From NCBI RefSeq assembly GCF_023375815.1, contig NZ_CP067412.1, forward strand, positions 434,001 through 498,000: a DNA stretch of 64,000 bases. Direction: 5' to 3'. Source of the stretch: Pseudomonas sp. HS6 (GTDB lineage Bacteria > Pseudomonadota > Gammaproteobacteria > Pseudomonadales > Pseudomonadaceae). Of the stretch, positions 19-6,130 are shown piece after piece. The notes beneath the pieces are model-generated. The model was not told where the DNA came from. It saw nothing but the letters and a program-made list of their open reading frames with translations, and did no database searches. Position 1 is the stretch's first letter; each line of letters opens with the position of its first letter. The translations under genes were made by a program, and so were the position numbers.

Positions 19-1503
19 ATGAGTGCATCACCCGATCTCTCAGCCGCCGTTGCCGACAGCGATGCCGAACAACTGCGCCAACTGGGCTACACCTCCAACT
101 TCAACCGCAGCATGAGCCTGTGGGAAAACTTCGCGTTGGGCTTCACGTATCTGTCACCGGTCGTAGGGGTTTATACCCTGTTCGGCCTGTGCCTGGCCGC
201 CGGCGGGCCACCGATGTTCTGGGCCTATTTGTTGGTCGGTTGCGGGCAATTGCTTGTGTGCCTGATCTTCGGCGAAGTGGTTTCGCAGTTCCCGATTTCC
301 GGCGGCGTTTATCCTTGGGCGCGTCGTCTGGTGGGCAAGAAATGGGCGTGGATGGTCGGCTGGATCTACTCCATCGCGCTGTGCGTGACCATCGCCGCCG
401 TTGCGGTCGGCGCTGGCCCGTACCTCGCGGCCATGCTGGGTTTTGAGCCGAGCAACAACACCAACATCGTCATCGCCCTGGTGCTGACGCTCTTTGCCAC
501 ACTGGTGAATCTCAGCGGCACCAAAGTGCTGGCGCGGATCGCCATGTTCGGCTTCCTCTGCGAGCTGGTGGGCGCGGTGATCGTTGGCGTGTACTTGCTG
601 ATTTTCGAGCGTCACCAGCCGATCAGCGTGCTGTTCAACACCTTCGATATCAGCGTCGAGGGCTCTTACCTGCCGGCGTTCCTCACGGCTTCGTTGGCGG
701 GGATGTTCCTCTACTACGGCTTCGAAGCCTGCGGCGACGTGGCCGAAGAAACCCCGAACCCGAGCGCAAAAATCCCGGTGGCCATGCGCATGACCATCTA
801 CATCGGCGGCATCGCGGCGATGTTTGCTTGCCTCGCGCTGATCCTCGCCGTGCCGGACATGCAAGCGGTGATCAACGGCACCGACAAGGACCCGGTCACC
901 ACCATCCTCAACAACGCCTTCGGCCCGGTCGGCTCGAAAGTGGTGATGGGCGTGGTAATGATTTCCTTCATCTCCTGCGTCATCAGCCTGCAAGCGGCGG
1001 CGAGTCGTCTGCTGTATTCCTACGCTCGCGATGAAATGGTCATCGGCAGCCGACTGCTGAAAAAGATTTCTCCTACGACCCAGGTGCCGGTTGCCGCACT
1101 GTTCGTGTCCGGCGTCCTGCCCGGCCTGATCATCGCCCTCGGCTTCTTCCTGCAAGACGCCGTGGCCACCATCGTCAGCTTCGCCGCCATCGGCATCTAC
1201 CTCGCGTTCCAGATGATCGTCCTGGCCGCCCTGTACGCCCGCAGCAAAGGCTGGAAACCGAGCGGCAAATTCACCCTCGGCGCCTGGGGCTGGCCGGTGA
1301 ACATCGGCGCGCTGGTGTACGGCGTCGGCGCAATCATCAACATGGCCTGGCCACGCACGCCGGATGCCGCGTGGTACATCAACTACGCGATGGTGCTGAG
1401 CACGGCGATCGTTATTGGTCTGGGGCTGGTTTATATGTGGATCGGCAAGCCGTATGACCATGGGAAGGCGCCGGCTGGGGATGCTTGGAAGGTGGGTCGG
1501 TAA
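19..1503 (+). CDS. APC-superfamily amino acid permease
   Basis: A 494-residue polytopic inner-membrane protein of the amino acid/polyamine/organocation family, expected to import an amino acid or amine with cations. About twelve hydrophobic segments alternate with short loops. A conserved-looking GGVYPWARRL stretch lies near residue 95 and an EACGDVAEETPNP stretch near residue 237, as in GABA/choline-type APC permeases. The ATG at 19 follows a GGAG-like ribosome site, so the start is supported although only 18 bases upstream are visible. The neighbour on the left lies outside the window, so any operon partner and the substrate cannot be told. Family assignment is firm; substrate is unknown. 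Confidence 0.9.
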   Translation: MSASPDLSAAVADSDAEQLRQLGYTSNFNRSMSLWENFALGFTYLSPVVGVYTLFGLCLAAGGPPMFWAYLLVGCGQLLVCLIFGEVVSQFPISGGVYPWARRLVGKKWAWMVGWIYSIALCVTIAAVAVGAGPYLAAMLGFEPSNNTNIVIALVLTLFATLVNLSGTKVLARIAMFGFLCELVGAVIVGVYLLIFERHQPISVLFNTFDISVEGSYLPAFLTASLAGMFLYYGFEACGDVAEETPNPSAKIPVAMRMTIYIGGIAAMFACLALILAVPDMQAVINGTDKDPVTTILNNAFGPVGSKVVMGVVMISFISCVISLQAAASRLLYSYARDEMVIGSRLLKKISPTTQVPVAALFVSGVLPGLIIALGFFLQDAVATIVSFAAIGIYLAFQMIVLAALYARSKGWKPSGKFTLGAWGWPVNIGALVYGVGAIINMAWPRTPDAAWYINYAMVLSTAIVIGLGLVYMWIGKPYDHGKAPAGDAWKVGR

Positions 1504-1515
1504 CAGAACACAACC

Positions 1516-1535
1516 TGCCCGCAGGGATGCGGGCA
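1516..1535. terminator. hairpin between convergent genes
   Basis: TGCCCGCA, a GGGA loop, then TGCGGGCA form a perfect 8-bp stem between the permease stop (+) and the rloB-like stop (-). No clear T-run follows on either strand, so it may be a weak bidirectional terminator. Confidence 0.5.
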
Positions 1536-1547
1536 TGGTTCGCATGA

Positions 1548-2174
1548 CTAGATCAACTGGGGTTTGGAGAGGGTTTCAAACTCGTCCATCAGTAAATGGA
1601 TTTCGGTACTTGGGTTGGGCTCACCACTGACAGAAACATCCTCAAGAATTTTCGGTGCCAGCGTTCTCGCCATATTGAATGGCTCTCCAAGCAGTTGAGT
1701 GAAATAGCTGATGTCCTTTCCCTTTTCATATCTGAACATGCCGGGCTTCGCTCTCAGGCTCTTGGTAACCAGATCACCCGGAGAGTTTTTCCCGACTGCC
1801 CTGAAAGGCTTTCGATTGAAACCAAAGTGCAGCAGAAGCCAAAACTCAAAACATGGATACGAGGCGATGACTGTGATCCTGGGATGAGACCTCGCAACAT
1901 TCAGTGCCCGCTCGAAGCACAAGTGAGTATCACGATCCAACACACAGAACACTTTGTCGAACTGCTTTTGTCGTACAACCGCGCGCTCCACTATCCCGCT
2001 CGGATGCGTAATGCCGCAATGGACGATTTCAACTTGTGCCTTGGCCCGAAAATAAAACGCGGCTTCCTCCAGATAATGCTTCCCTGACTTACTGTCCTCA
2101 CACAAGACCAACACTTTCGGCTGCGCCTTGAAACGTGAACCCTTTCGATCAAACAACCTGTTCGAACCTACCAT
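1548..2174 (-). CDS. RloB-like TOPRIM-fold protein
   Basis: A 208-residue protein resembling RloB, first named as a restriction-linked ORF product. The acidic signature expected of a TOPRIM-like nuclease is visible: LCEDSKSG (E26, D27) near the N-terminus, VLDRD (D80, D82) in the middle, and the family-typical SYPCFEFWLLLHF at about 104-116. The ATG at 2174 is preferred; an in-frame TTG at 2180 overlaps the stop of the upstream ATPase gene. Either way the two genes are translationally coupled. No hsdRMS genes accompany the pair. Base composition looks lower in GC than the flanks, suggesting acquisition. By analogy with other ATPase-TOPRIM pairs (PARIS, OLD/Gabija) it may be the nuclease of an anti-phage module; that role is inferred. 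Confidence 0.8.
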   Translation of the reverse strand: MVGSNRLFDRKGSRFKAQPKVLVLCEDSKSGKHYLEEAAFYFRAKAQVEIVHCGITHPSGIVERAVVRQKQFDKVFCVLDRDTHLCFERALNVARSHPRITVIASYPCFEFWLLLHFGFNRKPFRAVGKNSPGDLVTKSLRAKPGMFRYEKGKDISYFTQLLGEPFNMARTLAPKILEDVSVSGEPNPSTEIHLLMDEFETLSKPQLI

Positions 2175-2176
2175 TC

Positions 2177-3430
2177 TCAATCCCGCCTTATCAGCGGCAA
2201 CCCGCGATAGCGCCCTTCGAAATAGCGTTTCTCGACATCCTCACTTTCCCGTCCCTCAAAATCGTGCACGGAAAACAGGCTGGTAGCGCCGTGGGCATCG
2301 CGTTCGGTGATCCAGAACTGATCACGCCTAAGAATCTTTTCATTCATCAGATGCGTGTCGTGAGTGGTAAAGATCAGTTGAGTGTCCAGACCACTGCTCA
2401 AGTGCTTGCCAATCAAGTCAGCCACGATTTCAGGATGAAGGCTGCTGTCCAGCTCATCGACACACAAGACCCCACTACCCCCGGCCTGATTCATCATGAA
2501 CCAGGGTAGCCAGAAGCCGATCAGATTCTTTGTGCCACACGACTCTTCAGAAAAATCGAACTCGGCGTCACCTGAGACACTGGAATGCGTAAGGGTCAGT
2601 TTGTCCTTTTGCGCCGCCGCGAAAAACTCTTTCAAGGTCAGTTTTCTATTGCCCGAGGTTGCTATGTCTTCGTCCGGGTTGAGTTGAATGGCCGATACGG
2701 GAATTTCCAGAGCCTTGAGAAAGTCGCGAAGATCACTCGTATGGTTCTTGACCATTTTCAGAAACCGAATCGACGCTGTGGATAAACCAAGCATGTTGTT
2801 CTGCTCCACTACCAGCAACCCGGTTTGAAACCAACTGAACGGTAAGCGCAGTTGGCTCAACTCTTCGCTGCTATTGGCAACGGCTTGCGCGATAAACAAC
2901 AGCTTAGGACTGGTTAAACGACGCCAGGCATTGTGTACTTCCTTGCCACCCTCAAGGGTTTTACCAAACACATAGTGCTCGCCCTCCGCATCAAACTGGC
3001 GGCGATAGAGCAGGGTTTCCTTTCCTTTGGGATAGACGAGCAATTGCTCCTTAACAACTCTCTGGGCAGTCAGTCCGAGCAAGAACCGATAGCGCAGCCC
3101 GGCTTGTATAAAGTCGTACTCAAAGAGGCTGGGCGCATCATTCAAAGCCCGGTCAAACCGGAAAGGTGCAACCGGCAGTACATCGTCATTTGATCCCGAA
3201 GGCACCGCCATCAAGCGTCCCACAATCCCCATTGCGCGAATCAATGAAGACTTCCCTGAAGCGTTCGGGCCGTAAATTGCCGCGACCTTCAATAAATCAG
3301 GGAGTCTTTCAGCAGTGATGGGAGGCTTGAAGGTATTACGCGATTTGCTCAGACGAGGAGTGGCCGCCATGGACAGGGTTTGCCTGTCCCGAAACGAGCG
3401 GTAATTGGAAACCGAAAATTCGATCAGCAT
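2177..3430 (-). CDS. AAA15/RloA-like ATPase, ABC/SMC type
   Basis: A 417-residue ATPase of the COG1106 type. The N-terminus MLIEFSVSNYRSFRD is the usual first strand of OLD/RecF-like ATPases. Walker A is GPNASGKS at 54-61, Walker B VLCVDELDSSLHP has D325/E326, and an H-loop TTHDTH has H357. It carries no TOPRIM domain of its own; the downstream RloB-like gene would supply one. Its TGA stop overlaps the alternative TTG start of that gene, so they form a two-gene operon. Known relatives act as sensor/ATPase subunits in phage defence pairs, but no function can be read from sequence alone. Family call is secure; the defence role is inferred. Confidence 0.85.
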   Translation of the reverse strand: MLIEFSVSNYRSFRDRQTLSMAATPRLSKSRNTFKPPITAERLPDLLKVAAIYGPNASGKSSLIRAMGIVGRLMAVPSGSNDDVLPVAPFRFDRALNDAPSLFEYDFIQAGLRYRFLLGLTAQRVVKEQLLVYPKGKETLLYRRQFDAEGEHYVFGKTLEGGKEVHNAWRRLTSPKLLFIAQAVANSSEELSQLRLPFSWFQTGLLVVEQNNMLGLSTASIRFLKMVKNHTSDLRDFLKALEIPVSAIQLNPDEDIATSGNRKLTLKEFFAAAQKDKLTLTHSSVSGDAEFDFSEESCGTKNLIGFWLPWFMMNQAGGSGVLCVDELDSSLHPEIVADLIGKHLSSGLDTQLIFTTHDTHLMNEKILRRDQFWITERDAHGATSLFSVHDFEGRESEDVEKRYFEGRYRGLPLIRRD

Positions 3431-3711
3431 GTAGAAAACCTGCAGTTCATTCTTAGGATTCGAATAAATAAAGGAAAAACTGCGGCGCAGGGGCTGCCTC
3501 TCTGCAGGACATGCAAAAACAGGAAATTCCTACAGACGCTGCTTACGAGAAGGAACTTCAATTCCTACAACCAGCGTCGTCAGAGTAGACCTGGCACCGC
3601 TAGCGCCTGACCGATAGGCTTTGTCCCGTCGCAGCCCTATGAGCAGCCGAGGGTCGAAACCGGAAATCTGCCAACACGGTGCTTGCCCTTCATTGAACTG
3701 TGGTGCTTTCA
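3431..3711. other. gene-free stretch upstream of the ATPase gene
   Basis: About 280 bases that should contain the promoter of the ATPase/RloB pair (minus strand). Two similar motifs, GGAAATTCCTACAGACGC (from about 3521) and CAATTCCTACAACCAGCG (from about 3559), could be direct repeats. Short ORFs here lack ribosome sites and recognisable domains. I see no confident promoter. Confidence 0.4.
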
Positions 3712-3820
3712 CAACTTCAGTTCTGCGTTATGGCGGGCCGCGTGGCGCGGGCCTTTCGGTTTTGCCGTGTTGACGGGAAGTATCCCGACTTCGAACGCCA
3801 CTCGGTCCGCCACCCAACTT
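3712..3820 (-). ncRNA. candidate C4-like antisense RNA element
   Basis: Read on the minus strand, the segment folds into nested hairpins. TGGCGG (near 3812) pairs with CCGCCA (near 3730) as a closing stem. Inside are CGGGA-TACT-TCCCG, a small CGG/CCG hairpin around AAAA, and CCGCG-CCA-CGCGG. This order, and the plus-strand peptide in the opposite frame that resembles Ash-type phage ORFs, recall the C4 antisense RNA of P1-like phages and prophage remnants. It is a recollection-based match: I could not run a covariance model. If right, it is a phage-derived regulatory relic next to the ATPase/RloB pair. Confidence 0.4.
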
Positions 3821-3869
3821 GTCGAAGGGGTTGATGCAACCGCAGCGTCCCCGGTAAATCTCAAGAATG

Positions 3870-3903
3870 AAAAAGGGGCGGACTTCACAGTCCGCCCCTT
3901 TGG
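3870..3903 (-). terminator. strong intrinsic terminator
   Basis: AAAGGGGCGGA and TCCGCCCCTTT form an 11-bp stem with an 8-base loop. On the minus strand it is followed by TTTTTCATT, and it sits just past the stop of the 61-residue gene, so it most likely ends that transcript. The plus strand also has a T-rich tail after GG. Confidence 0.8.
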
Positions 3904-3912
3904 TTTTTCACT

Positions 3913-4098
3913 TCAAAACCGCGAAACACTCCTCATCGCATCCACCAGATACCTCATCGCAATCCGGTCGCTTTCCGACAACTCCCGGTAACGCTCCACC
4001 AGTTTCAGTTCGTCAGGACTGAGCCGGCGTCTTCGCCGGACGTTGGTGAGGCAGGGAAAGATGCCCAACATTTCGGTGATGCCTTGTCCTTTTGCCAT
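3913..4098 (-). CDS. small conserved-looking protein, 61 residues
   Basis: A 61-residue protein with a basic patch (RRRRRL at about 22-27) followed by an amphipathic helical half (LSPDELKLVERYRELSES, then DRIAMRYLVDAM). The helical half resembles the C-terminal tail of some phage-repressor-like XRE proteins, but there is no helix-turn-helix in front of it. It is probably a real gene: a good ribosome site (AAAAGGA, 8 bases before the ATG) precedes it and a strong terminator follows it. Function is unknown. It lies beside a C4-like RNA candidate and the ATPase/RloB pair, so a phage-related origin is possible but not shown. Confidence 0.65.
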   Translation of the reverse strand: MAKGQGITEMLGIFPCLTNVRRRRRLSPDELKLVERYRELSESDRIAMRYLVDAMRSVSRF

Positions 4099-4501
4099 GG
4101 ACGATGTCCTTTTCCAGTACGTCAGAATTTTTCCAAAACCGCATCGCCCTGCTCCTTTAAGCAGCGATTTGAGCCCTGCCGGTCGGATGGGTCGTGACCG
4201 GCGATGCCCATAGAATAGAAATTAAATCGGCGCTGAAAAGCTGTTTTTAGAGTAATTAGTCGAGAAAAGCAGTTATGCCCTATAAATCAGAAAGGGCTGT
4301 GGGATAAGTAACCGAAACGTCTTGTTTCATTGAGACGCTGTCGTCGTGCTATCAATGAATTTTGCAAAATCAGCGAACGGATTAAGCTAGCGGGCATCTG
4401 TTACTAGTCCGTAGCGTTTGGCCGAAGGCTTGTCCGAACCGTAATTTCTGATCCAGTACGTGCCAGGAACGGCGCGGGATTGTCCACGACAGGTTGTAGT
4501 T
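4099..4501. other. AT-rich divergent intergenic region
   Basis: About 400 bases between the small minus-strand gene and opgD (+), clearly richer in AT than its surroundings. It contains a CGTCT...AGACG inverted repeat (4318-4337) and a GCCC...GGGC palindrome around TATAAATCAGAAA (from about 4278). It must hold promoters for both divergent genes, but I cannot choose a -35/-10 pair with confidence. No gene or RNA gene recognised. Confidence 0.45.
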
Positions 4502-6130
4502 ATGCACCGCAGGAATTTGCTCAAAGCGTCAATGGCCATTGCGGCTTATACCGGTCTATCGGCCACGGGCCTGCTGGCCTCCCGCGCCTGGGCCGCCTCT
4601 GGCGGTGCCGCCGACGGTGAAGCCCAGGCCTTCGACTTCGAAGCGCTGAAGCGCCAGGCCAAGCAACTGGCCGGCAACGCCTATCAGGACAGCAAACAGG
4701 TGCTGCCGCCGACCCTGGCGACCATGACCCCACAGAACTTCAATGCGATCCGCTACGACGGCGATCATTCGCTGTGGAAGGAGAACAAGGGTCAGCTCGA
4801 TGTGCAGTTCTTCCACGTCGGCATGGGCTTCCGCCAGCCGGTGCGCATGTACAGCGTCGATCCCAAGACTCGCACGGCCCGCGAGGTGCATTTCCGCCCT
4901 CAACTGTTCAACTATGAAAACACCTCGGTCGACACTCAGCAGCTCAAGGGCGATCTGGGTTTTGCCGGCTTCAAGCTGTTCAAGGCACCGGAACTGGATC
5001 GCCATGACGTGGTGTCGTTCCTCGGCGCCAGCTACTTCCGCGCGGTGGATGCCACTGGCCAATATGGCCTTTCCGCCCGTGGCCTGGCCATCGACACCTA
5101 CGCCAAGAAACGCGAAGAATTCCCCGACTTCACCAAATTCTGGTTCGAGACGCCGGATCAGAACGCGACCCGCTTTGTGGTCTACGCCCTGCTCGACTCG
5201 CCGAGCGCGACCGGTGCCTATCGCTTCGACATCGATTGCCAGGCCGAACGCGTGGTGATGGAAGTCGATGCTCACGTCAACGCCCGCACCGCCATCGAAC
5301 AATTGGGCATCGCCCCGATGACTAGTATGTTCAGTTGCGGCACTCATGAACGCCGGATGTGCGACACCATCCACCCGCAAATCCATGACTCGGATCGTCT
5401 GGCCATGTGGCGCGGCAACGGCGAGTGGATCTGCCGCCCGCTGAACAACCCGGCAACCCTGCAATTCAACGCCTTCGCCGACACCGATCCGAAAGGTTTC
5501 GGTCTGGTGCAGACCGACCACGAATTCGCCAACTACCAGGACACTGTCGACTGGTACAGCAAGCGTCCGAGCCTGTGGGTAGAACCTACAACTGCGTGGG
5601 GCGAAGGCTCTATCGATCTGTTGGAAATTCCTACAACCGGCGAAACCCTCGACAACATCGTCGCGTTCTGGACGCCGAAGAAACCGGTGGCTGCCGGCGA
5701 CTCGCTGAACTACGGCTACAAGCTCTACTGGAGCGCCTTGCCGCCGGTCGGCACGCCACTGGCGCGAGTGCATGCAACCCGTTCGGGCATGGGTGGATTC
5801 GTCGAAGGCTGGGCACCGGGGGAGCATTATCCGCCGGTCTGGGCCCGTCGTTTCGCCGTGGACTTCACCGGTGGCGGTCTGGATCGCCTGCCGCAGGGCA
5901 CCGGGATCGAACCGGTGGTCACTTGCTCCAACGGCAAGGTGCAGGACTTCAGCGTGCTGGTGCTGGATGACATCAAGGGTTACCGGATCCTGTTCGACTG
6001 GTACCCGACCAACGACAGCGTGGAGCCGGTTGAGCTGCGTCTGTTCATCCGCACCAACGACCGCACATTGAGCGAGACCTGGTTGTACCAGTACTTCCCG
6101 CCGGCGCCGGACAAGCGCAAGTACCCTTGA
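4502..6130 (+). CDS. opgD: periplasmic glucan biosynthesis protein D
   Basis: A 542-residue OpgD/MdoD protein, which acts in the periplasm on osmoregulated periplasmic glucans and shapes their backbone. The N-terminus MHRRNLLK is a twin-arginine export motif, followed by a hydrophobic stretch and an AWA cleavage-like site near residue 34; Tat export and this length are typical of OpgD rather than OpgG. The ATG at 4502 is chosen over an upstream GTG at 4460 because it places the RR motif at the start and has an AGG-containing ribosome site. It stands alone, with a REPIN downstream. Confident assignment. Confidence 0.93.

Follow-up and report, generated by a model that had tools for sequence, protein, structure and literature searches.

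AbiL of Lactococcus lactis (abiLi/abiLii), which Deng et al. reportedly described in 1999, is an abortive infection system encoded by a two-gene operon, with the ATPase gene first and the gene for an RloB protein second. OLD and GajA of Gabija follow the same ATPase-TOPRIM logic in a single fused protein; a helicase is a further component of Gabija. Excerpts of PMC12409363 name AbiL among the systems in which an ABC ATPase is combined with a TOPRIM domain, and describe how in PARIS the ABC ATPase holds AriB, a TOPRIM tRNA-cleaving nuclease, until a phage protein triggers its release. The RloB family is tied to AbiLii in the accessible part of PMC10440598, where an HHpred relationship between the RloB domain and OLD_TOPRIM is reported and AbiLii is treated as a TOPRIM_OLD toxic effector, and excerpts of two genome surveys already record AbiL in Pseudomonas (PMC13182921, PMC12447246). 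Here we analyzed an ATPase-RloB gene pair of Pseudomonas sp. HS6 within a 64,000-nucleotide stretch of its chromosome (contig NZ_CP067412.1, positions 434,001 to 498,000; termed the window and numbered from 1). We conclude that, judged by its sequence, the pair is a copy of AbiL, and the best explanation, to which we assign a probability of about 0.7, is a chromosomal AbiL in which the ATPase would act as a sensor restraining a TOPRIM-type RloB nuclease until infection.

The pair lies on the minus strand at 1548..3430. The AbiLi-like gene (2177..3430) encodes a 417-residue ABC/OLD-type ATPase with a Walker A motif (GPNASGKS, residues 54-61), a Walker B motif (VDELDSSLHP from residue 324) and an H-loop (H357, in LIFTTHD from residue 352), and it matches the Pfam families AAA_21 (1.2e-29, 104.7 bits, cut-off 27) and AAA_15 (2.4e-9, 37.7 bits, cut-off 32.1). 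The AbiLii-like gene, which matches RloB (PF13707, 3.9e-23), runs either from a TTG (1548..2180, 210 residues), overlapping the ATPase stop by 4 nt, or from an ATG two codons later at 2174 (208 residues), 2 nt past that stop. The ATG is the more likely start on sequence comparison, because most of the listed homologues (208 residues) begin there. The initial annotation had called two tightly coupled genes, the three ATPase motifs, and RloB acidic residues E26/D27 and D80/D82; all are present, and its residue numbers are those counted from the ATG (28/29 and 82/84 from the TTG).

Among the 76 PADLOC families that matched the ATPase, AbiLi was best (PDLC02335, 1.5e-75, 252 bits), and AbiLii was the sole family to match the RloB protein at E ≤1 (PDLC02337, 7e-20, 70 bits), in a partial match over positions 23-91 of the 170-position profile. 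AbiLi and AbiLii were likewise the best families for a second pair in the same genome, for a phage pair, for a plasmid pair, and for a Pseudomonas pair located away from the chromosomal site described below. The two genes are adjacent and on the same strand with the ATPase first, as in the original operon. The Pseudomonas copy is chromosomal and sits in a recurrent site, whereas the lactococcal system is on a plasmid. Because AbiL has already been described, the pair is a member of a known system rather than a new candidate; the stand-alone ATPase-TOPRIM defence pair proposed at the outset thus holds up on profile evidence under an existing name.

PARIS (AriA/AriB) shares with this pair an ABC/OLD-type ATPase (AAA_21/AAA_15), a separate TOPRIM-type partner, and conserved E and DxD motifs in register with DUF4435. 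The partner here is RloB rather than DUF4435 (PF14491), and AbiLi fits the ATPase far better than the AriA profile does (2e-30, 105 bits, behind 252 bits). DUF4435 had no match in the Pseudomonas sp. HS6 genome at E 0.001, the partner matching RloB only, and we ruled out membership in PARIS because the partner lacks DUF4435. In Septu (PtuAB; PtuA also occurs in retrons) the partner is the HNH nuclease PtuB, whereas here it is RloB only. Unlike the fused Gabija and OLD proteins, the 417-residue ATPase contains no TOPRIM domain detectable in Pfam at E ≤0.1. WonAB, according to the excerpted source, also joins an ABC ATPase to a nuclease, which has a restriction-enzyme fold and not a TOPRIM fold. 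RloA/RloB of type I restriction-modification loci share the RloB family name and domain, but no hsd gene is found among the five nearest neighbors here (permease, MdoG/OpgD, GNAT, flavin mononucleotide (FMN) oxidoreductase, RecJ), in agreement with the initial annotation, and on that basis we ruled out an association with type I restriction-modification.

In the Rossmann-like sheet of TOPRIM domains, strand 1 is followed by a glutamate and strand 3 by a DxD motif. In the predicted RloB structure (predicted local distance difference test score 90.7), E28 follows strand 23-27 and DRD at 82-84 ends strand 76-82 (TTG numbering), and this modeled topology supports a TOPRIM-like motif order. We aligned 43 RloB sequences, consisting of the window protein, seven close homologues, and 35 distant members (29 from a phylum draw, the second copy from the same genome, and five from named loci). 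In ATG numbering, E26 is conserved in 42/43 (one row is gapped), D80 in 43/43, and D82 in 40/43 (E in the other 3), while E110, W112, and H116 are each present in all 43. When used as a broad profile, RloB matched DUF4435/AriB best (probability 31%) and OLD TOPRIM next (6%), with three controls below 1%; these matches are weak, and in both alignments the E and DxD motifs line up. A narrow RloB profile scored 1.3% against DUF4435, no better than a phosphoribosyltransferase control (2.7%), and reached 31% once broadened; the DUF4435 profile was built from 10 of 15 loci, with five longer rows (542-651 residues) excluded. Within the top 50 rows of each Protein Data Bank comparison, the RloB model retrieved only generic Rossmann folds, and AriB, OLD, and M5 TOPRIMs were absent. 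A search of solved structures by sequence gave nothing for RloB and one weak match for the ATPase, whose modeled fold appears closest to Rad50/SMC heads and PtuA. Support for a TOPRIM active-site geometry in RloB comes from the model topology and the weak AriB-family profile match, and not from any solved structure.

RloB relatives occur in 17 of 298 genomes drawn evenly across Pseudomonas, and ATPase relatives (E ≤1e-40) occur in the same 17, adjacent to RloB and with the ATPase first in every one. The Pfam RloB model found the same 17 genomes in an overlapping 249-genome draw of the genus, and matched 51 of 299 genomes in the phylum draw (48 over the cut-off). Across 64 named loci on genome contigs, the ATPase lies directly upstream of RloB in 63; the remaining one (L158) ends at the contig edge. 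RloB is interrupted beside an intact ATPase in 3/17 genomes (G045, G134, G219; L047, L048, L050). No broken ATPase was seen in the 17 genus genomes, and a split ATPase match was found in the named locus L108. Pseudomonas sp. HS6 itself carries a second AbiL-like pair (G000:C1:4641882-4643856; L032:3883-5857, plus strand) encoding a 444-residue ATPase and a 215-residue RloB, 27-28% identical to the first pair; it is bordered on one side by an alginate-lyase/DUF6124 stretch and on the other by what we take to be a fructose-bisphosphate aldolase gene.

Within the genus, 15 of the 17 copies are found at one site, where a 61-residue open reading frame (ORF) and opgD flank the pair on one side and an amino-acid permease gene usually does so on the other. 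Of the 64 named loci, 25 are at this site too, although some are apparently the same assemblies as in the genus draw. In the window this site is bordered on the left by the permease gene (19..1503, plus) and on the right by the conserved 61-residue ORF (3913..4098, minus), which has no Pfam match, followed by the MdoG/OpgD glucan biosynthesis gene (4460..6130, plus). G219 and G082 lack the permease next to the pair, and G048 has a fragment of it. The two off-site genus copies (G030, G066) are 52-57% alike. Comparison with AbiL-free relatives delimits an accessory unit, the AbiL operon with its upstream region, at 1505..3457, accurate to some tens of bases. The accessory stretch previously placed at 1504-4100 is thus real and shorter, because 3457-3829 is common to genomes without the pair. 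As previously proposed, its guanine-plus-cytosine content is below that of its surroundings (51.1% versus 60.3% for the whole window); of the 1241 segments of 1950 bp sampled by sliding along the window, only 4 (0.3%) are equally low, and all 4 begin at 1501-1651, inside the accessory stretch. A terminator-like hairpin (1516..1535, minus) directly follows the RloB stop as a consensus match only, in a region with 4 terminator-like sites versus 3.5 in shuffled sequence, and a promoter scan found 0 sites versus 2.0 expected.

We could measure the gap between the permease and the 61-residue ORF in 54 genomes, 13 with AbiL and 41 without, and the AbiL-free gaps ranged from 175 to 3420 bp. Clusters of cargo ORFs, each named from one scanned representative, were Bro-N-like (31 ORFs), a 125-210-residue family with no Pfam match (12 ORFs), which we take to be SLOG-like, flavin adenine dinucleotide (FAD) oxidoreductase (7), ParE (7) with a ribbon-helix-helix partner (6), a phosphoribosyltransferase-like protein with PsyrT/ShosT matches (5), and PIN/VapC-like (3) with a MazE-type partner (3). 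The gap holds AbiL together with a SLOG-like ORF in G019, a ParE-type pair in G128, and a VapBC-type pair in G134; in at least 10 genomes AbiL is accompanied by a Bro-N-cluster ORF. Gap ORFs other than the ATPase and FAD oxidoreductase are ≤236 residues, and so no full-size integrase is evident in the gaps, as judged from the one representative scanned per cluster. No convincing flanking direct repeats were found as insertion marks.

Several further features of the site were apparent. The 61-residue ORF is 67-98% identical, and adjoins opgD, in most relatives with the permease-opgD site. The SLOG-like family (≤210 residues; in the gaps of, e.g., L056 and L054) is overlapped in five genomes by the phosphoribosyltransferase-like gene, and from the sequences these two genes could possibly form a small defence or toxin-antitoxin pair. 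In L062 and L066, the gap is filled by a 198-residue protein with a weak PD-T4-9_A match and a 144-residue partner. The window also holds a C4 antisense RNA-like match (3726-3817, plus) of 37.9 bits, under the gathering score of 45. An E-value search of the loci of five relatives gave similar sub-threshold C4 matches (37.3-41.3 bits) in 5/5 and the c4-a1b1 target element in 3/5, and none reached the Rfam gathering score in 11 relatives' loci. In L073, the C4 match lies just 5' of a Bro-N domain, a stretch that has been lost in the window.

To follow AbiL at this site, we built a flank tree from opgD and permease DNA in 57 of 71 genomes, excluding ten with no opgD match and four whose opgD is 77-80% alike; G091, G140, and G222, in which the permease match lies at a contig end, and genomes with only a 74-76% permease paralogue were outside the sample. 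AbiL presence changes 11 times on this tree, with at least 9 changes forced by starred branches. Shuffled labels required a mean of 13.4 changes, and 24-31 of 500 shuffles were as low as 11, indicating that presence is slightly clustered at most. This, together with carriage in 17/298 genus genomes, confirms that the pair is accessory rather than core. Among the 15 AbiL copies at the site, identity of the ATPase correlates with that of opgD (Spearman 0.62 over 105 nonindependent pairs), RloB identity does so weakly (0.21), and four close pairs are concordant between the flank and AbiL trees. In G016, identity to the window is 94-95% for opgD and the permease and 92% for the FMN oxidoreductase gene, but only 61% for the ATPase and 69% for RloB, which by these comparisons is clearly a replaced AbiL allele. 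A single recent acquisition was rejected, as the combined ATPase and RloB tree mostly follows the flank tree. Given the mostly concordant trees, the at least 9 forced changes, and the G016 exception, we read the history as long-term residence punctuated by many losses or swaps and including at least one allele replacement, not one recent arrival. Acquisition, which had been suggested from base composition, is accordingly part of this history, but most copies have stayed at one site and largely follow their flanks.

The family also travels on mobile elements. Of the 43 plasmid records with distant relatives, 26 are from Klebsiella, and the 11 of these that were listed are 5.0-5.3 kb; one AbiL pair is on a 5.2-kb mobilizable plasmid. 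Matches in phages comprised one Klebsiella phage (two records) and a third, short match in the phage collection over 21% of the query. In that Klebsiella phage, ST13-OXA48phi12.1 (Peduoviridae, P2-type; L262), the pair is flanked by the replication endonuclease and portal genes, and the accessible part of PMC9122126 describes this replication-portal gap of P2-like phages as a hotspot of anti-phage systems. The phage record labels the two genes simply ATP-binding protein and RloB domain-containing protein. Three IMG/VR contigs carry the pair. In L169, genes for portal, terminase, scaffold, and major head proteins lie within a few ORFs of it; an integrase match is present in L170, and other portal and terminase genes in L171. 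The 141 neighbor ORFs of the named loci away from the permease-opgD site (up to two per side) had no hsd families among their 25 most frequent PADLOC/Pfam families. Hachiman, MADS, and other defence models had 1-4 members each in raw counts, and such models also cross-match ordinary helicases and ATPases.

By analogy with PARIS, the ATPase would be the sensor and RloB the effector. An oligomeric AbiLi-like ATPase, with its ABC/OLD-type head and predicted fold near Rad50 and PtuA, may keep the AbiLii-like RloB inactive until a phage product or activity triggers it and RloB is released. RloB would then use a putative metal-dependent TOPRIM-type center formed by E26 and D80/D82, aided by E110 and H116, to cut a growth-essential nucleic acid, most likely RNA such as tRNA, and the infected cell would halt before phage are made. 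Here sensing, sequestration, nuclease activity, target, and abortive outcome are drawn from the PARIS and AbiL literature; in the excerpts of open-licence literature that we searched, we found no AbiL trigger or molecular target.

We were concerned that RloB might instead act on DNA, as an OLD/Gabija-like nuclease attacking phage DNA directly, without abortive infection. The modeled ATPase appears Rad50/PtuA-like and the OLD TOPRIM profile matches in register, if weakly (6%). Also in favor of a DNA target, DNA is the substrate of the OLD and Gabija TOPRIM nucleases, and its ends are bound by Rad50. We nevertheless consider it doubtful, since RloB is a separate small protein like AriB rather than an ATPase-fused domain, and in profile comparison it is closer to DUF4435/AriB (31%), a tRNase family according to excerpts of PMC12409363. 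A purely housekeeping role, in which a DNA-repair or similar ATPase has an unrelated small partner and no part in defence, could draw on the modeled Rad50/SMC-like fold of the ATPase, but the accessory distribution, low guanine-plus-cytosine content, phage and plasmid relatives, and PADLOC AbiL matches make it highly improbable.

The pair could also be a toxin-antitoxin module in which the ATPase neutralizes RloB and persistence is due mainly to addiction, with defence a side effect. Fusobacterium AbiLii is toxic in Escherichia coli (PMC3985639, in excerpt), and the accessible part of PMC10440598 treats pairs of AAA and TOPRIM_OLD proteins as neutralized toxin-antitoxin pairs, speculated to be abortive infection systems. 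ParDE-, VapBC-, and PsyrT-like cargo at the same site in relatives fits this alternative as well, and a broken RloB beside an intact ATPase in 3/17 genomes is the decay expected of such a pair. Yet at least 9 gains or losses on the flank tree represent more turnover than strong addiction suggests, Fusobacterium AbiLi failed to neutralize AbiLii in the one test reported in the same excerpt (PMC3985639), and PARIS is nontoxic when either gene is deleted, according to excerpts of PMC9122126. These points leave addiction as a rather improbable main cause of persistence, and a sensor ATPase restraining the RloB nuclease as the preferred explanation.

Tentatively, and at somewhat less than even odds, we propose jointly that the permease-opgD gap is a defence-cargo micro-hotspot with no evident integrase in one Pseudomonas lineage, where AbiL, PsyrT/ShosT-like, ParDE, VapBC, and Bro-N/C4 cargo would be swapped via recombination in the conserved flanks, and that AbiLii/RloB is a tRNA-cleaving TOPRIM effector; AbiL would then be a sensor of the PARIS kind whose nuclease belongs to a family of its own. 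The excerpt of the one defence-hotspot paper whose text we checked does not mention permease, fluorescens, or glucan. As the AbiL family is known, the recurrent cargo site is a modest new observation. It indicates that a single chromosomal position can see turnover of small toxin-antitoxin and defence genes without an evident full-size integrase in the gap, and it supplies natural with/without pairs among close relatives, while the conserved E/DxD/ExW/H signature provides named residues for probing RloB.
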